A DNA stretch of 64,000 nt from Butyrivibrio sp. (GTDB lineage: Bacteria; Bacillota; Clostridia; Lachnospirales; Lachnospiraceae), in the NCBI GenBank assembly GCA_015056655.1, contig SVFV01000017.1, forward strand, positions 1-64,000. Direction: 5' to 3'. Below are positions 52,840-63,714 of this stretch, piece after piece. Below the pieces are notes generated by a model, which was not told where the DNA came from, did not search any database, and saw only the letters and a program-made list of their open reading frames with translations. The position numbers were made by a program, and so were the translations under genes. The first letter of the stretch is position 1; each line of letters opens with the position of its first letter.

Positions 52840-53970
52840 ATGCGTTTTAGAACCAGACTAATGATAGCGTCGACTACCATCGTAGTCATACCGTTCATAT
52901 TGGTTATGGGGACGTTCTATTTGCTTCAACGAGCAGTTGGTGGTGATTCACCGAGACTGGTAAATTACACCGTTTTAGCTTTTGGAATTATCCTTGTTAC
53001 AAACAGCCTTATACTTACCACGTGGCTAAGGAAAAGCTTCTTTGAACCAATATACGAACTTAATATTGCGATGAAAAATATTAAGGACGGCAATTTTGAT
53101 TACATGCTGCCGACGGACATTAATGAAAAGGGCGAAATTGGCGAGCTATACAGAAACTACGAAGATATGAGGCTAAGGCTCAAGGAGTCAGCTGATGAAA
53201 AAGTATTAAGGGAAGGCCAAAATAAGGAACTGATAAGTAACATTTCCCATGACCTGAAGACTCCTATCACTGCCATAAAGGGATACTCCCAGGGACTATT
53301 GGAGGGAGTTGCCGACACCCCTGAAAGGCAGATGAAATATATTCGTACCATTTACAATAAAGCAAATGATATGAATAACCTCATAAATGAGCTGACACTG
53401 TATTCAAGCATAGACAACAACCGAATTCCTTATAACTTCACAAGGATCAATGTTGGGGATTACTTTGGAGATTGCATAGAAGAGATAGGAATGGAGCTGG
53501 ATAGTAAAGACATAAAGCTCAATTATGCAAATCTTACGACACCTGATACGCAGATCGTCGCGGATCCTGAACAGCTTAAGCGAGTGGTAAATAATATCAC
53601 AAGCAACAGCGTTAAATATCTTGGAAGAGAAGATGGAACAGGAATAATCGATATAAGAATTTTGGATGAAGTCGATTCCGTAAGGGTTGAGATAGAAGAT
53701 AATGGAAAGGGAATAGGAGCACAGGATATTCCCAATATCTTCGACAGATTTTACCGCACTGATTCTTCGAGAAACAGTAAACAGGGCGGAAGCGGAATTG
53801 GTTTATCAATAGTTAAAAAGATAATTGAAGACCACGGCGGATACATCTGGGCTACGAGCCACGAGGGAGAGGGCACGTGCATGCACTTCGTACTAAGGAA
53901 GTACAGAGAGCACCATGAGAAGACGGATAGCGAGGCAGTGGTTGAACACGACGTATTTGAAGACATTTAA
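52840..53970 (+). CDS. Sensor histidine kinase (HAMP-HisKA-HATPase)
   Basis: SNISHDLKTPITAIKGYSQGL, IEDNGKGIG, GGSGIGLSIVKKI. Confidence 0.95.
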   Translation: MRFRTRLMIASTTIVVIPFILVMGTFYLLQRAVGGDSPRLVNYTVLAFGIILVTNSLILTTWLRKSFFEPIYELNIAMKNIKDGNFDYMLPTDINEKGEIGELYRNYEDMRLRLKESADEKVLREGQNKELISNISHDLKTPITAIKGYSQGLLEGVADTPERQMKYIRTIYNKANDMNNLINELTLYSSIDNNRIPYNFTRINVGDYFGDCIEEIGMELDSKDIKLNYANLTTPDTQIVADPEQLKRVVNNITSNSVKYLGREDGTGIIDIRILDEVDSVRVEIEDNGKGIGAQDIPNIFDRFYRTDSSRNSKQGGSGIGLSIVKKIIEDHGGYIWATSHEGEGTCMHFVLRKYREHHEKTDSEAVVEHDVFEDI

Positions 53971-53993
53971 CAAAAAAACAATATGAGGAGGCA

Positions 53994-54689
53994 TTGAGTA
54001 TGAGCAGAATTTTGATCGTTGAGGACGAGGAAGCGATTGCTGATCTTGAGAAGGACTATTTAGAGTTATCAGATTTCGAGGTTAAGATTGAAAATGCAGG
54101 TGATGTAGGATTACAGACAGCATTAAGTGAAGAGTTTGATCTTGTTATTCTTGATCTGATGCTTCCTGGCATGGATGGCTTCGAGGTTTGCAAGCGCATC
54201 AGGGAAAAGAAAGATGTTCCGGTTCTCATGGTTTCAGCTAAGAAGGACGACATCGACAAGATAAGAGGTCTTGGCCTTGGTGCTGATGACTATATCACAA
54301 AGCCCTTCAGCCCTTCTGAGCTGGTTGCAAGAGTAAAAGCTCACATGGCACGCTACTCAAGACTTGTAGGCAGTGCAACTGAGTCTAATGATGTTGTCGA
54401 GATCAGAGGACTTAGAATCGACAAGACTGCAAGAAGAGTTTATGTGGATGGAGCTGAGAAGAGCTTTACTACAAAGGAGTTCGATCTTCTTACTTTCCTT
54501 GCAGAAAATCCGAATCATGTATTTACCAAAGAAGAACTTTTCCGTAAAATATGGAACATGGATTCAATCGGTGATATCGCTACTGTTACAGTACATATCA
54601 AAAAAATACGTGAGAAGATTGAATTTGATACCTCAAACCCTCAGTACATTGAGACAATCTGGGGTGTAGGTTACAGATTTAAGGTTTAA
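53994..54689 (+). CDS. OmpR-family response regulator
   Basis: REC domain and winged-helix C-terminus (VTVHIKKIREKIE, YIETIWGVGYRFKV). Confidence 0.96.
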   Translation: MSMSRILIVEDEEAIADLEKDYLELSDFEVKIENAGDVGLQTALSEEFDLVILDLMLPGMDGFEVCKRIREKKDVPVLMVSAKKDDIDKIRGLGLGADDYITKPFSPSELVARVKAHMARYSRLVGSATESNDVVEIRGLRIDKTARRVYVDGAEKSFTTKEFDLLTFLAENPNHVFTKEELFRKIWNMDSIGDIATVTVHIKKIREKIEFDTSNPQYIETIWGVGYRFKV

Positions 54690-56075: not shown

Positions 56076-56116
56076 AAAAGCTCCCGCGAAGGAAAATCCT
56101 TTGCAGGAGCTTTTTT
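56076..56116. terminator. Strong hairpin terminator, left member of an inverted pair
   Basis: AAAAGCTCCCGCGAAGGAAAATCCTTTGCAGGAGCTTTTTT. Confidence 0.9.
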
Positions 56117-56164: not shown

Positions 56165-56196
56165 TTTAGGTTTCTTTTAGGTTGACGTTTTAATCT
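56165..56196 (+). promoter_or_regulatory. Putative OmpR/PhoB-type box and -10: TTTAGGTT-N3-TTTAGGTT-N7-TAATCT
   Basis: 8-mer direct repeats at 56165-56172 and 56176-56183 (11-bp period); same layout at 59639-59670. Confidence 0.65.
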
Positions 56197-56248
56197 AATC
56201 TCATAACAAAGAAAACCGATTGCGAAAGACAACAAGAGGTCAATAGAA

Positions 56249-56995
56249 ATGGGCGGATTTAAAGATACATTTGCAAGGATAGAAACAAAATATCTGTTGG
56301 AGGATTTCCAGTACCGGGCAATTAGAGAACGACTTGAGGGAATGGCTCAGGTTGATGAGTACGGAAAGACCTCCATCTTAAACATATATTACGATACCAA
56401 GGATTTTAATCTTATAAGAACATCTCTTGAAAAGCCGGTCTACAAGGAAAAGCTGAGACTTAGAACTTACGGAATTCCTGAGGATGACACAAAGGCATTT
56501 ATCGAGATCAAGAAAAAGTACAAGGGAATTGTTTATAAGAGAAGAATCGGAATGGATTACAGCGATGCACTTAAGTACCTGAATGAAGGAGCACCTGCTA
56601 AAAAGGAATCACAGATTTCAAATGAAATCGACTATTTCAAGAGCTTTTATAAAGGGCTTCGCCCGGCGATGGCAATATCCTACGACAGAATAGCCATGGC
56701 AGGCATAAGCGATCCGGAGCTTCGCATAACATTCGATGAAAATATCAGATGGAGAGTTGATCACCTGGATTTAAAGAAAGGTAATGTTGGAGAAGAAATC
56801 CTAAAACCAGGTCAGCATCTCATGGAACTTAAGATAGCTGGAGCAATGACATTGGAAATGGCACACATCCTCGATGAACTTGGAATCAGACAGACATCAT
56901 TTTCAAAATATGGCAGAGGATTTGTTGACTATATGTACGGTGGAAGAACAGATGCAGACAATATCATACGAGATATTCGAATTCTTTCAGCGTAA
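56249..56995 (+). CDS. VTC-domain (polyphosphate polymerase fold) protein
   Basis: FARIETKYLLEDFQ, LNIYYDTKDF, KEKLRLRTYG, AFIEIKKKYKGIVYKRR. Confidence 0.9.
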   Translation: MGGFKDTFARIETKYLLEDFQYRAIRERLEGMAQVDEYGKTSILNIYYDTKDFNLIRTSLEKPVYKEKLRLRTYGIPEDDTKAFIEIKKKYKGIVYKRRIGMDYSDALKYLNEGAPAKKESQISNEIDYFKSFYKGLRPAMAISYDRIAMAGISDPELRITFDENIRWRVDHLDLKKGNVGEEILKPGQHLMELKIAGAMTLEMAHILDELGIRQTSFSKYGRGFVDYMYGGRTDADNIIRDIRILSA

Positions 56996-57041
56996 AAAGG
57001 ATACATCAACACAGATATACAGTTTTTAAGGAGTTAGAACA

Positions 57042-57725
57042 ATGGAATCATTATTATTTAATTCAGTAATTGAATCAGGAAATATCACTGCAATGGCTTT
57101 TATGGCATCTACCCTTTGCTCACTTGCAATCGGTATCTATATAGCATTCATGGCAAACATTAAGGGTGGAACTTCAAGAAGCCTTTCAATCACACTGGCT
57201 CTTCTTCCTGCGGTAGTACAGCTTGTAATCATGCTGGTTAACGGAAATGTAGGAGCTGGAGTTGCAGTAGCCGGAACCTTCTCACTAGTAAGATTCAGAT
57301 CTCAGCCTGGTTCAGGACAGGATATCACAAACATTTTCCTGGCTATGGCAGTAGGCCTTGCAACAGGAATGGGATATATCGGAGTAGCACTTGTTTTCGC
57401 AGTAATCATCACACTTGCTAACCTTGCACTTAAGGTTATGAACTTTGGCGGACATGGATGTGATGTTAAGACAGTAAAGATTACAGTACCTGAAAGCCTT
57501 GATTTTGAAGGCATATTCGATGATATCTTCTCAAGATACACATCAAATGCAGGACTTATGGAAGTAAAAACAACAGGAATGGGAAGCCTTTATAAGCTTA
57601 CCTATAATGTAACAATGAGACCTCAGGCATCTACAAAGGGAATGATCGATGAGATGCGTCAGAGAAATGGAAACCTTGAAATCAGCTGCACAAGACCTGT
57701 AGCTGTAGTGCCGGAAGGACTTTAG
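57042..57725 (+). CDS. DUF4956 membrane protein
   Basis: TM segments plus GTFSLVRFRSQPGSGQDITNIFLAMAVGLATGMGYIGVA. Confidence 0.9.
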   Translation: MESLLFNSVIESGNITAMAFMASTLCSLAIGIYIAFMANIKGGTSRSLSITLALLPAVVQLVIMLVNGNVGAGVAVAGTFSLVRFRSQPGSGQDITNIFLAMAVGLATGMGYIGVALVFAVIITLANLALKVMNFGGHGCDVKTVKITVPESLDFEGIFDDIFSRYTSNAGLMEVKTTGMGSLYKLTYNVTMRPQASTKGMIDEMRQRNGNLEISCTRPVAVVPEGL

Positions 57726-57772
57726 TCTAAACTGAAAGTGATTCTCATCAGAGAAAAGGATGGGCTTTAAAT

Positions 57773-59572
57773 ATGAGAAAAAGAAATTTAATGGCTGTTT
57801 TTGCAACAGGAATGGTTTTAGGAGTTGGCGCAGCAGCCTGCGGAATTGCAGGAAGCGCAAATTCAAATAGTGAAAGTAATAGTGCTGCAGATGAAAGTAG
57901 CACAGAAACTGAAGAAAGCGCTGTTGCTGCAGATACAGCATCAAACACCGCTACTTTGGCAACAGCCGATGTAGACACTTCTACAATAGGTGCTGTAACA
58001 AAGGTTTCAGATCTTGATCTGGAAAACATGTTTACAGACAGAGATATTGATACTGGTTATGATGAGAGCCAGTCTGCGGTAATCACCTTAAATGGAGATA
58101 GCGCAGAAGGCACAGGAAGTGGATTTTCCATAGATGGAACAACAATTACCATTACGGAGGAAGGAACCTACATATTCAAAGGTAGCCTTAGTGATGGACA
58201 GATTGTGATCGAGGCGGATGATGCAGCCAAGATCCAGATAGTTTTAAACGGAGTAGACATAACCAATGATGATAGCGCATGTATATGGGTAAAGAGCGCT
58301 GACAAGGTATTTGTCACTCTCGCAGCAGGCAGTGATAACACATTATCCGACACTGGTGCTGAGTATGTACAGACAGATGATTCATCGAATGTTGATGGCG
58401 TTATTTTTAGTAAGGACGACATCACATTCAATGGATCAGGAACACTAACCATAAATGCCAGCTATGCTAATGGCATTGTTGGAAAAGACGATGTAAAGTT
58501 CACAAGCGGAACCTACAATATTAGTGCTACTGGCAATGCCATTGAAGGCAAGGATTCAGTAAGAATCAAGGATGGAACCTTCAACCTCAACAGCGGAAAA
58601 GAAAAGGATGGTATCCATACAAGTAATGAAGAGGATGCTGGAAAGGGCTACATCTACATTGAAGGTGGAGATCTCTCTATTTCAGCTCAGGACGATGGTA
58701 TTCATGCAGCAACTGTCCTTTATATAGCTGGTGGAAACATAGATGTTACTGAAAGCTATGAGGGTCTTGAAGGGGACACCATAGATATCCTTGGTGGAAA
58801 TATAAAGTTGAAGGCAAGCGATGATGGCTTAAATGCTTCAACAAGTACCTCTCAGGATGAGTTTGGCTTTGGAAACATGGGCGGTGGAATGGAATATGAT
58901 GAAAATGCATATATCCATATCTACGGCGGAGAGTTATATGTAAATGCAGATGGTGACGGAATTGACTCCAACGGCGACCTCTATGTGGATGGCGGATATG
59001 TGGTAGTTGATGGACCTGAGCAGGATATGAACGGTTCTCTTGATACAGGTGGAAACGCATACATTTATGGCGGAACAGTAATTGCAGTTGGTTCATCAGG
59101 AATGGTTGAAAATTTCAGCTCTGAATCAGGACAGTACTCGGTAAAATATGGATTTGAGAGTACCTTAGAAGCAGGCACTCAGATCACAATAGCAGACAGT
59201 AATGGAAATGAGCTTCTTAGCTACACACTCACAAAGAGTGCAGTTTCAATAGTATATAGCTCGGCAGATATAGCAGAAGGTGATTACACAATAACAGCTG
59301 GTGAGACATCCGATACATTCACAGTAAGCGATAAGGCTACATCAGCCGGAACTGAATCAGGCTTTGGTCCAGGAATGGGCGGTGGACACGGACAGATGCC
59401 TGATGGAGAAAGACCTGAATTTAAGGAAGGCGAGATGCCAGAGCTTCCTGACGGTGAAATGCCAGATTTTGAGAATGGCGAGATGCCTCAACCTCCAAGT
59501 GGAGGAATGCCACAGTCATCAGATGGAAATGGTGTAGACGCATCAACCCAGGATAGTACAGACCCCAATTAA
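57773..59572 (+). CDS. Cthe_2159-like carbohydrate-binding beta-helix lipoprotein
   Basis: Lipobox-like GAAAC; repeated GGxxxxxASDDGLNAS / ALEGKDSVRI-type rungs (ISAQDDGIHA, GDGIDSNGDLYVDGG); C-terminal GEMP repeats. Confidence 0.85.
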   Translation: MRKRNLMAVFATGMVLGVGAAACGIAGSANSNSESNSAADESSTETEESAVAADTASNTATLATADVDTSTIGAVTKVSDLDLENMFTDRDIDTGYDESQSAVITLNGDSAEGTGSGFSIDGTTITITEEGTYIFKGSLSDGQIVIEADDAAKIQIVLNGVDITNDDSACIWVKSADKVFVTLAAGSDNTLSDTGAEYVQTDDSSNVDGVIFSKDDITFNGSGTLTINASYANGIVGKDDVKFTSGTYNISATGNAIEGKDSVRIKDGTFNLNSGKEKDGIHTSNEEDAGKGYIYIEGGDLSISAQDDGIHAATVLYIAGGNIDVTESYEGLEGDTIDILGGNIKLKASDDGLNASTSTSQDEFGFGNMGGGMEYDENAYIHIYGGELYVNADGDGIDSNGDLYVDGGYVVVDGPEQDMNGSLDTGGNAYIYGGTVIAVGSSGMVENFSSESGQYSVKYGFESTLEAGTQITIADSNGNELLSYTLTKSAVSIVYSSADIAEGDYTITAGETSDTFTVSDKATSAGTESGFGPGMGGGHGQMPDGERPEFKEGEMPELPDGEMPDFENGEMPQPPSGGMPQSSDGNGVDASTQDSTDPN

Positions 59573-59586
59573 TTCTTCTTCCATAG

Positions 59587-59628
59587 AAAAAGCTCCTGCA
59601 AAGGATTTTTTCCTTAGCGGGAGCTTTT
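59587..59628. terminator. Hairpin terminator, right member of the inverted pair
   Basis: AAAAAGCTCCTGCAAAGGATTTTTTCCTTAGCGGGAGCTTTT. Confidence 0.9.
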
Positions 59629-59638
59629 AACATAGGAA

Positions 59639-59670
59639 TTTAGTTTGATTTTAGTTTAGCATTTTATTAT
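59639..59670 (+). promoter_or_regulatory. Putative OmpR/PhoB-type box and -10: TTTAGTTT-N3-TTTAGTTT-N7-TATTAT
   Basis: 8-mer direct repeats at 59639-59646 and 59650-59657; TATTAT at 59665-59670, same offset as at 56191. Confidence 0.65.
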
Positions 59671-59680
59671 TGTTATTAAT

Positions 59681-60793
59681 ATGAGACGAAAAGTTTTTGC
59701 TTCAATTTTCATATTGACTATAGTGCTGAATATTTTATCGATAGTTAGCACAGGCTTTGCAGATTTTTACACAAGATATATCTTTCCGATATGGGAGAGG
59801 ATCATGGGAGGAATAACATCACCCATGCCATTTTCCTTTGGAGAATGGATGATTATAGCAGGGCTTTTATGGCTACTGGTTCTATTGATTTCCTTCATAG
59901 TATTTTGCGTAAAGAAAAATCGCTTTTTTGTCGGATTTGGCAGAGCCACAATAGATCTTCTAATAATAATTGCACTGGTCATGACACTTAACTGCTTCAT
60001 AAATTACCACACGACACCCATTGGCGAGGAGATGACAAAAGAAGCTGGTGGAGAAAAAAGACAGTACACAGTGTCAGAGCTTGCAGAGTACCGGGACTTT
60101 GTTGTAACGAGATGCAACGAGCTTGCAGAGAAAATGGACAGGGATGAAAACGGATTTGTCAGATATGCAGGAACTGATGATGTAGACACAGTTAACGCAC
60201 TTATGGCAAAGGAAGCTAAGAAATCCATGGCAGGGCTATCCGACAGATTCCCTAAGCTTTCAGGATATTATGTAAATGCGAAGCCCCTCCTTTTTTCCGG
60301 CTTTATAAGTCAGCAGTATATGCAGGGTTACTACTTCCCGTTTTCCATGGAGGCTAACTATAACAACGTGATGTACGTTATGAATAAGCCTTTTACCATG
60401 TGCCACGAGCTATCTCACACAAAGAGCTACATCATGGAGGATGAAGCGAATTTCCTTGCGTACCTTGGATGCACGAATTCAGAGGACGAGGTCTTTGAGT
60501 ACAGCGGATATATCGGGATTCTGAACTATGTAAATAATGAGTTCTATAACAATGTGACTAAGGAAGAGTACGAATCCCATGTGAAGCTGTCGGATAAGGT
60601 TAAGACGGATAACATTTTCCTGACAAAGGAGAGCTGGGACAAGGTAGAAGAAAACGCTGTGTTATCTACAGAAACAGTGAAGCAGGCAGCAGATACCTTC
60701 GTGGATACAACTCTTAAGGTAAATGGAATAGATGATGGAATTGCCAGCTACTCAAGGGTAGTGGAGCTGCTTTTAATGGATTATTACAAATGA
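59681..60793 (+). CDS. DUF3810-like membrane protein with HExxH motif
   Basis: N-terminal TM helices; TMCHELSHTKSYIMEDEANFLAYLGC. Confidence 0.8.
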   Translation: MRRKVFASIFILTIVLNILSIVSTGFADFYTRYIFPIWERIMGGITSPMPFSFGEWMIIAGLLWLLVLLISFIVFCVKKNRFFVGFGRATIDLLIIIALVMTLNCFINYHTTPIGEEMTKEAGGEKRQYTVSELAEYRDFVVTRCNELAEKMDRDENGFVRYAGTDDVDTVNALMAKEAKKSMAGLSDRFPKLSGYYVNAKPLLFSGFISQQYMQGYYFPFSMEANYNNVMYVMNKPFTMCHELSHTKSYIMEDEANFLAYLGCTNSEDEVFEYSGYIGILNYVNNEFYNNVTKEEYESHVKLSDKVKTDNIFLTKESWDKVEENAVLSTETVKQAADTFVDTTLKVNGIDDGIASYSRVVELLLMDYYK

Positions 60794-60808: not shown

Positions 60809-61483
60809 ATGAAATTACTTCTTGCAGAGGATGAAAAAGAGCTGTCAAATGCGCTGGTTGCCATTTTGAAGCACTCAAGCTATACAGTTGATGCTGTTTA
60901 TGATGGACAGGATGCGCTGGATTACATACTTACAAGTGAGTATGACGGAATTATCTTGGATATCATGATGCCTGGAATGGAGGGCACAGAAGTCCTCAAG
61001 GAAATTAGAGCAAAGGGAATTTCAACTCCTGTTCTTTTCCTTACAGCGAAGTCTGAGATTGATGACAGGATTAAAGGCCTTGATCTTGGGGCTGATGATT
61101 ATCTTACAAAGCCCTTTGACATGGGAGAACTCCTTGCAAGAATCAGGGCTATGACCAGAAGAAAGGCAGATTATGCTCCTAACAATCTAAGCTGCGGAAA
61201 TCTTAGTTTGGACAGAGCTACCTATGAGCTTAGTACACCGGAGCATGAGAGCATAAGGCTTGTGGGCAGAGAGTTTCAGATGCTTGAGATGCTCATGGAG
61301 AACCCAGGAAGAGTTATATCTGTTGATACTTTCATGGACAGAATCTGGTCTGATGGTGAAGCGGACGTAAATGTAGTATGGGTCTATATTTCCAATATCA
61401 GGAAAAAGCTTACTTTGCTTGAAGCAAACTGCGAGATCAAGGCTTCAAGGGGCGTCGGATATTCAATGATTGTTAAAGCTTAA
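60809..61483 (+). CDS. OmpR-family response regulator
   Basis: MKLLLAEDEKELSNALVAIL, LDIMMPGMEG, winged-helix C-terminus. Confidence 0.96.
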   Translation: MKLLLAEDEKELSNALVAILKHSSYTVDAVYDGQDALDYILTSEYDGIILDIMMPGMEGTEVLKEIRAKGISTPVLFLTAKSEIDDRIKGLDLGADDYLTKPFDMGELLARIRAMTRRKADYAPNNLSCGNLSLDRATYELSTPEHESIRLVGREFQMLEMLMENPGRVISVDTFMDRIWSDGEADVNVVWVYISNIRKKLTLLEANCEIKASRGVGYSMIVKA

Positions 61484-61494
61484 TCGGAGTCAGT

Positions 61495-62853
61495 ATGGTC
61501 AAAAAACTACGAAGAAAATTTGTTCTTACAGCAATGCTGTCACTTCTTGTGATAATCATCTGTATCATCGGTGTTATCAATGTGTACAATTACGTTCAGA
61601 TTCAAATGGGCGCAGACGAGATCCTGACTATTCTGTCTGAGAATGATGGCTTTTTCCCTGATCCTGTTTTTATGGGAATGATAAAAGAAGAACAGAATAA
61701 AACCCTGAATAATCAAAAGAATGAAAATGATGATAAGTCAGAAGATGGTCCTCCGCCATTTCCTGAGGGTGAGATGTTCTGGGGGGATAAAACCAATTAC
61801 AACAGACAGATGGAGATGCCATACCAGTCCAGATATTTCTGGGTAAGGCTTAGTGAGGATGGCAGTGTTAAGGAGATAAACACAGGCCATATTGCGGCTA
61901 TTTCTTCAAGCGATGCAAAGAGTGTTGCGACAGATATCTATGAAAGCGGCATAGTACAGGGCTACTATGACAATCACTACAGATATTTGGTCAAGCAAAA
62001 TGACAATGGCGAGTACCTGGTGATGTTCGTAGACTGTAGCAGAGATTTTTACAACGCAAACAGACTTCTTATCATGACCGTGCTTATAGGCATCATCAGT
62101 CTTCTGGCGATGTTTATCCTTGTATATATGTTCTCAGGAAAAGCAGTTGCGCCTGTGGTTGAGTCCCTGGAAAAGCAAAAGAGATTCATCACTGATGCCG
62201 GACACGAGCTTAAAACACCTATTGCTGTTATCTCGGCAAACGTTGATGTGCTTGAGCTTGAAAGCGGAAAAAGTGAGTGGACAAACAGTATTCGCGGTCA
62301 GGTAAAGCGAATGACAGAGCTTGTCAAAAATATGCTGACTCTTTCTCGAATGGAGGAGGAGAACATCCATGTAGTTTTTTCTGACCTGAACTTAAGCCAG
62401 ACTATTGTTGAAAACTCGGCCAGCTTTGCGGCGGTAGCTGATTCCAAGGGCTTAAAATACAACCTGGATATTGCAGAGGATATCCATATCCTTGGTGATA
62501 AGAACGGAATCAATCAGCTTTCATCTCTACTGATCGACAATGCTATGAAGTATTCCTCAGAAAATGGAAGCGTAAATGTAATGCTTTCAAAGGATCAGAG
62601 AGGAAAAAAAGCTATATTTGAGGTATCAAATACCTGCGATAGTATCCCGGAAGGAAATCTGGACAGACTTTTTGACAGATTTTATCGAGCAGACAATTCA
62701 CGAAGCAGAGATACAGGAGGTTATGGAATAGGCCTTTCTGTTGCAAGAGCTATAGCGAATTCTCATGGCGGAGAAATAGAGGCTCAGCGTGACGGAGATC
62801 ACATAATAAGGTTTATAGTAAAGATTCCTGTGGCAAAAAATAAGACAAACTGA
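61495..62853 (+). CDS. Sensor histidine kinase with extracytoplasmic domain
   Basis: Two TMs, FITDAGHELKTPIAVISANVDVLEL, GGYGIGLSVARAI. Confidence 0.95.
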   Translation: MVKKLRRKFVLTAMLSLLVIIICIIGVINVYNYVQIQMGADEILTILSENDGFFPDPVFMGMIKEEQNKTLNNQKNENDDKSEDGPPPFPEGEMFWGDKTNYNRQMEMPYQSRYFWVRLSEDGSVKEINTGHIAAISSSDAKSVATDIYESGIVQGYYDNHYRYLVKQNDNGEYLVMFVDCSRDFYNANRLLIMTVLIGIISLLAMFILVYMFSGKAVAPVVESLEKQKRFITDAGHELKTPIAVISANVDVLELESGKSEWTNSIRGQVKRMTELVKNMLTLSRMEEENIHVVFSDLNLSQTIVENSASFAAVADSKGLKYNLDIAEDIHILGDKNGINQLSSLLIDNAMKYSSENGSVNVMLSKDQRGKKAIFEVSNTCDSIPEGNLDRLFDRFYRADNSRSRDTGGYGIGLSVARAIANSHGGEIEAQRDGDHIIRFIVKIPVAKNKTN

Positions 62854-62895: not shown

Positions 62896-63714
62896 ATGAA
62901 AAGAAGATTTTTTGCAGCAGGAGCTTTAGTGATGGCGCTCCTTATCGGTGGATGTGGATTATCCGAGGAGAATTTACAGCTTGTTACAGAGACCAGAGAG
63001 AATCTTACAAAAGCGAAGACTGAAGCTGAGACCATTTATGGAAAGGTCACAGATGATGATAATGAAAAATATCTGGCTGATCTGGCTACGGAATACGAAG
63101 AGTTCGAGGCACTTAATCTCGAGAAGCTTAAGGATGAGGATGTAGAGGAGCTTGTTCCCAGAATGAAGGAGCTCATATCTTCTTATGAAGAACTCTACAT
63201 AGAGCTTGAGAGTGTGCATAAATACGAGCAGGATACTGCTGCGGAAGAGGCTAAGTACAAGGAAGTTACCTGCTACATAGAAAATAAGTCAGGTTCAGAG
63301 TTATCAGGAATTGTTTTAAATGATGTTACAAAGGGCGAAAGCTCAGACAATATTCTTTTTGAAGGAGAAACACTTCCTTCTGGAAGAATGCTTGCGGGAG
63401 TGACATTTTCTCTTTACTCTGAGAGCACTGCCTGGCAGCTTGTTACTACAGATACTCTTGGAAATGAGAACACCTATGATGTGACATTTACAGATTTTGA
63501 TAATCTTTCTCAAAATGGAATGTCACTTACGATATATTCTCCGGAGAGCGAGAGCAGTGTGAGCGTTGGAAGCTATGTAGCGGTTCCTGAGCCTGAAGAA
63601 GCTGTAGAAGATGCAACAGAAGGCGAAGCTACAGAGGATTCCTCTGAAGAAGAGACAGATACAACAGCCGAAGAAGAAAACACCGACACTACTGAAGATA
63701 GCGCCGGTGAATGA
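62896..63714 (+). CDS. Lipoprotein with acidic C-terminal tail
   Basis: Lipobox LIGGC; tail EAVEDATEGEATEDSSEEETDTTAEEENTDTTEDSAGE. Confidence 0.8.
   Translation: MKRRFFAAGALVMALLIGGCGLSEENLQLVTETRENLTKAKTEAETIYGKVTDDDNEKYLADLATEYEEFEALNLEKLKDEDVEELVPRMKELISSYEELYIELESVHKYEQDTAAEEAKYKEVTCYIENKSGSELSGIVLNDVTKGESSDNILFEGETLPSGRMLAGVTFSLYSESTAWQLVTTDTLGNENTYDVTFTDFDNLSQNGMSLTIYSPESESSVSVGSYVAVPEPEEAVEDATEGEATEDSSEEETDTTAEEENTDTTEDSAGE

Follow-up and report, generated by a model that had tools for sequence, protein, structure and literature searches.

A direct-repeat promoter box in a Butyrivibrio VTC locus and its predicted two-component regulator

Within a window of 64,000 nucleotides (the whole stretch of DNA analysed here), two promoters of a VTC locus carry the same kind of box, an 11-bp direct repeat whose spacing to the -10 hexamer is fixed, and a nearby two-component regulator most likely switches on a set of cell-surface genes by means of it. 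Judging from sequence comparison, we consider it highly probable that the boxes are bound by dimers of the response regulator (RR) encoded at 60809 as class II activation sites, with the VTC operon and the regulator's own operon among the targets. The locus contains the following features:

56076..56116, + strand: intrinsic terminator of the gene preceding the VTC unit (stem-loop and T run, by folding), abutting box 1 upstream
56165..56183, + strand: box 1, TTTAGGTT-N3-TTTAGGTT, 11-bp direct repeat with spacer TCT, kept upstream of VTC in congeners
56191..56196, + strand: -10 hexamer TAATCT, 7 nt after box 1
56249..56995, + strand: VTC-domain gene of polyphosphate polymerase type (PF09359, E 4e-38)
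57042..57725, + strand: DUF4956 membrane protein gene (PF16316)
57773..59572, + strand: Cthe_2159-type carbohydrate-binding surface lipoprotein gene (PF14262, E 1e-77)
59587..59628, + strand: intrinsic terminator of the VTC unit (by folding), abutting box 2 upstream
59639..59657, + strand: box 2, TTTAGTTT-N3-TTTAGTTT, 11-bp direct repeat with spacer GAT, at the DUF3810 position in the source genome only
59665..59670, + strand: -10 hexamer TATTAT, 7 nt after box 2
59681..60793, + strand: DUF3810 membrane protein gene (PF12725, E 2e-92), start codon conserved in relatives
60809..61483, + strand: OmpR/PhoB-family response regulator with recognition helix VVWVYISNIRKKL (PF00072 and PF00486), the proposed box binder
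61495..62853, + strand: sensor histidine kinase (HK), partner of the 60809 regulator (HisKA and HATPase_c)
62896..63714, + strand: conserved lipoprotein-like gene, neighbour of DUF3810 and the two-component system (TCS) in relatives too

Each box lies directly behind an intrinsic terminator, which indicates that each opens its own transcription unit: box 1 precedes the VTC-DUF4956-Cthe_2159 unit, and box 2 precedes DUF3810-RR-HK together with the lipoprotein-like gene, for which no Pfam match was obtained. The original prediction placed 8-mer repeats with 11-bp spacing at 56165-56183 and 59639-59657, with the -10 hexamers beginning 8 nt past the last base of the repeat, i.e. after a gap of 7 nt; the repeats were found at both positions and the spacing was confirmed for both hexamers. 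TAATCT, the hexamer of box 1, is a weak one. In the 60809 regulator both the receiver and the winged-helix Trans_reg_C domain are present; NCBIfam provided no name above cut-off for this protein or its HK, and the equivalogs for PhoB and others scored far below their cut-offs on the regulator.

Repeats of this kind might be chance products of AT-rich, terminator-proximal DNA. The region is T-rich, and the bare 19-mer, with 3 mismatches allowed, occurred 5 times in the window against 4.9 expected, which is not above chance. Against such an origin stands first the exactness of the matches: the 19-mer joined to TAnnnT at gap 7 (with as many as 3 mismatches allowed) was present 2 times in the window, both with 0 mismatches, versus 0.17 expected, and two such matches appeared in 0 of 100 shuffles of the window. 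A scoring matrix of 32 columns was trained on 21 distinct VTC-promoter boxes, all from other genomes, and the box 2 site (59639) was never part of the training set. Box 1 scored 29.8 and box 2 scored 29.2; no other place in the 64 kb exceeded 7.6, and the best score in 60 simulated windows was 15.8. Sites in the source genome were counted by pattern searches, and the genome scan suggested along with the original prediction returned only 5 matches of TTTAGNNTNNNTTTAGNNT in 4.0 Mb (0 for the reversed control pattern), so the motif is not abundant. On the strength of the matrix scores, the rarity in the genome, and the conservation and spacing tests given below, chance origin was rejected, and we regard it as extremely improbable.

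VTC genes were taken from about 45 congeneric genomes and annotated by iterated HMMs instead of single-sequence phmmer, which missed divergent VTC genes. The box was found in about 27 congeneric VTC operons, mostly 30-100 nt before the start, and reads TTTA(A/G)GTT in the first half-site and TTTAGGTT in the second, followed by 7 nt and TAnnnT. In the spacing test, boxes were picked by the 19-mer alone, without the -10, in order to avoid circularity, and every distance was checked; TAnnnT stood at gap 7 in 34 of 43 boxes and in at most 6 at any other gap. Conservation in orthologous upstream regions, anticipated for both promoters, was thus found for the VTC box, across the genus and with the exact -10 spacing, but not for the DUF3810 box, which is absent at that position from all 17 other DUF3810 regions compared. 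In some VTC promoters (L100, L151, L153, L098) a third half-site, weaker than the other two, precedes the box by another 11 bp, which suggests that more than one regulator dimer may be accommodated there.

At the TCS locus of several relatives, boxes are placed elsewhere: between RR and HK (L163, L164), close to where DUF3810 and the lipoprotein gene meet (L165, L167) or ahead of the RR (L169). In three near relatives (L128, L129, L157) the box-driven VTC operon is immediately followed by the TCS, and transcription from the VTC promoter could extend into the TCS genes; in L129 a possible terminator stands between the two. Given boxes at varied places of the TCS locus and the TCS located behind the VTC operon, autoregulation is plausible, by way of different layouts.

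In the mechanism that we propose, a dimer of the 60809 OmpR/PhoB-family regulator would bind each repeat, which would stand in for the -35 element. As 7 nt separate the end of the second half-site from the -10 hexamer, the regulator in its phosphorylated, bound form would be positioned at about -38 to -20, where it would recruit RNA polymerase (class II activation). Inside the box no TTGACA-like -35 is found at these promoters, and this lack, combined with the rigid 7-nt phasing, is the pattern to be expected under class II activation. A protein bound at -35 can also occlude polymerase, and the box does cover the -35 position, hence the repeat might block the enzyme and act in repression. We find this reading quite improbable: the box has no -35 hexamer of its own, the phasing to the -10 is as rigid as contact activation expects, and in the CiaR system promoters laid out in this way are activated (PMC3091779). 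Binding by the 60809 regulator, its dependence on phosphorylation and activation rather than repression are what we infer, and our guess, from the nature of the targets, is that the signal might be envelope or surface stress.

Predicted targets of activation by the 60809 regulator are the VTC-DUF4956-Cthe_2159 operon and, through positive autoregulation, the DUF3810-RR-HK operon; further ones would be the genes of a surface lipoprotein and of a small membrane protein as well as an operon for an HlyD-type exporter, and probably small RNAs. The five source-genome sites lie before the VTC operon, the DUF3810-TCS operon and genes of C22, C72 and C1. The C22 site precedes a gene of a 519-aa lipoprotein, the C72 site a three-gene HlyD-type exporter operon (with a poor -10 at gap 7 and a matrix score of 11.7), and the C1 site the gene of a 141-aa membrane protein, with a DnaJ-domain gene behind it. 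The same types of predicted target recur behind boxes of congeners: lipoproteins of this kind in many genomes, the 141-aa MYGRNG protein in G012, and an exporter-type box also in G007, G008 and G052. Both units of the regulon originally postulated (VTC and DUF3810-RR-HK) are boxed, and the predicted regulon is wider than these two.

Genus-wide, the box with its -10 gave 216 matches versus 23 for the reversed pattern. Among genomes at least 90% complete, the box was present in 40 of 40 having an orthologue of 60809 (mean 3.6) and in 2 of 8 lacking it (mean 0.25), with a Fisher p of 2e-6 computed without correction for shared ancestry; this test covered the cognate regulator only. On an rpoB tree of 25 genomes, presence of the regulator changes about 5 times, at least 3 of them on well-supported branches. 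Half of the eight regulator-less genomes (G021, G028, G046, G070) keep DUF3810, which means that the box tracks the regulator and not its neighbour, and the counts of 0-4 for the reversed pattern of the looser 19-mer in these eight indicate that base composition alone is not sufficient.

The sites could nevertheless be genuine but meant for another OmpR-family protein, their linkage to 60809 being incidental. OmpR-type regulators are numerous in the genome (76 first-look candidates) and could bind similar repeats, and in other genomes box-carrying VTC operons are often far from the TCS. We think this unlikely, as genomes without the 60809 orthologue are mostly boxless, even the four that retain DUF3810, and two further lines of evidence speak for the 60809 regulator. 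Firstly, regulators 46-64% identical to it occur in Lachnospiraceae, Ruminococcus and other Clostridia MAGs, in loci arranged as RR-HK-box-VTC or divergently (e.g. L190, L195, L210). The repeats there have an 11-bp period, and TAnnnT again follows after 7 nt; in L210 the repeat is present at both the VTC and the RR promoter, and degenerate versions are seen in L194, L199 and L201. Secondly, paralogous RR-HK-VTC systems (L158-L161, in G004, G005, G023 and G069) use the box TTCAGGTT-N3-TTCAGGTT at gap 7, where TTCAGGTT differs by one base from TTTAGGTT found here, and their recognition helix is VVWTTIGYVRKKL versus VVWVYISN(I/L)RKKL in the 60809 family, so box letter and helix change together. 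The postulated link to the 60809 regulator gains support from co-occurrence, Clostridia linkage and this joint change; the DUF3810 box, strong in itself but specific to the source genome, is the weaker half. The paralogous systems make a natural specificity pair with the 60809 system. The TCS encoded upstream, at 52840-54689, was also considered as a candidate and was rejected, its recognition helix (ATVTVHIKKIREKI) being unrelated.

The closest known parallel is CiaRH of streptococci. The CiaR box is TTTAAG-N5-TTTAAG (NTTAAG is allowed as first half-site), located ten bases before the -10, and the CiaR helix is VVEVYVSKVRKKL (PMC3091779). In both systems an 11-bp direct repeat replaces the -35 at a fixed distance to the -10, and the recognition helices of CiaR and 60809 are identical in 9 of 13 residues. 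Unlike in CiaRH, the box here is TTTA(A/G)G-N5-TTTAGG with conserved flanking TT, very close but not identical, 9 nt separate hexamer and -10 versus 10 in CiaR, and the targets centre on VTC, DUF4956 and surface lipoproteins. Orthology of 60809 and CiaR was rejected: CiaR of Streptococcus ratti (L422, helix VVEVYVSKIRKKL) shares 89 of 224 residues with it (40%) and is the fifth-best match in that genome, four other S. ratti regulators matching 60809 better. With shared logic and a regulator that is not a CiaR orthologue, the system appears to work like CiaRH without being CiaRH.

The likeness may extend to candidate small RNAs. The csRNAs of the CiaR regulon possess two stem-loops, with anti-SD/anti-AUG sequences in the unpaired region (PMC3091779), and candidate targets here include putative small RNAs in which two stem-loops are accompanied by an unpaired linker rich in C and U. 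Several gene-less boxes precede stretches of 80-155 nt that open with a hairpin at the 5' end and close with a terminator hairpin, the unpaired linker lying between the two:

L336, L337, L338, L347, L352, L356, L359, L360: box-driven candidate noncoding stretches with two hairpins
C54:99, C88:16418 and C92:31737 of G000 (L185, L186, L187): source-genome small-RNA sites, one family with a conserved linker

Judged by the pattern only, the three source-genome sites are at control level, and they are notable because of their family membership. A search with the linker only yielded 14 copies of one small-RNA core in 10 genomes and 0 in the control. The box score was at least 16 in 8 of these copies, a degenerate box occupied the same place in 5, and a contig end accounted for 1; in random 260-nt stretches, genuine boxes still included, such a score is reached in 0.5%, and the 14 copies are homologous and thus not independent trials. 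Single folds of the small RNAs were significant; consensus folding on a MAFFT alignment did not bring the hairpins into register and gave no covariation support. No relevant Rfam family was found, and target prediction with the linker in the source genome returned matches at control level only. The three copies here (C54, C88, C92) would consist of the 5' hairpin, unpaired linker and terminator, and the linker (CUCAUAAGAACAC...CUUUUCUUCAUA) could pair with translation starts. Boxes probably also precede a family of csRNA-like small RNAs that had not been listed before. We are slightly inclined to the broader view that the VTC-linked regulon, widespread in Butyrivibrio and other Clostridia, is a functional counterpart of CiaRH with its own csRNA-like RNAs and a non-orthologous regulator.

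Operators of the PhoB/PhoP/OmpR type combine a winged-helix regulator with tandem half-sites of 11-bp period in class II position. The regulator type, the 11-bp tandem half-sites and the class II distance are the same here, but the half-site sequence is its own and VTC is the only known phosphate gene among the targets. A VTC-type polymerase beside DUF4956 is also known from the cotH-polyphosphate polymerase-DUF4956 accessory module of Gram-positive pel clusters; unlike that module, the present locus includes a Cthe_2159 lipoprotein and a dedicated TCS, and in the part of the article considered here no regulator or operator is described (PMC7112168).

Gut and rumen Clostridia commonly carry VTC-DUF4956 loci, and our literature search found no regulator or operator named for them, nor any mention of DUF3810. 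With its rigid spacing, the box makes the regulon open to direct testing and offers a means of finding targets in any genome. TTTAGG and TTCAGG, natural specificity variants whose regulators differ in the recognition helix, lend themselves to studying regulator-box co-evolution, and the small-RNA arm, if true, would be a second instance of the CiaR-csRNA design, apparently an independent one.

The DUF3810 gene adjoins a 60809-type TCS in most of the genus genomes examined, and its product has a HELSH motif of zinc-metallopeptidase type (60404-60418). The predicted start of the box 2 promoter, at about 59677, is only about 4 nt before the DUF3810 ATG and no Shine-Dalgarno is visible, so the mRNA is possibly leaderless; in L157 and L143 a -10-like hexamer likewise stands right before the conserved DUF3810 start codon. 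Acidic proline-rich GEM/PEGEMP motifs are present in the outer segment of the sensor kinase (PPPFPEGEMFWG, window 61750-61790) and also in tails or linkers of box-driven surface lipoproteins (window 59380-59510; L007 4228-5787), a likeness which may be due to unrelated composition.
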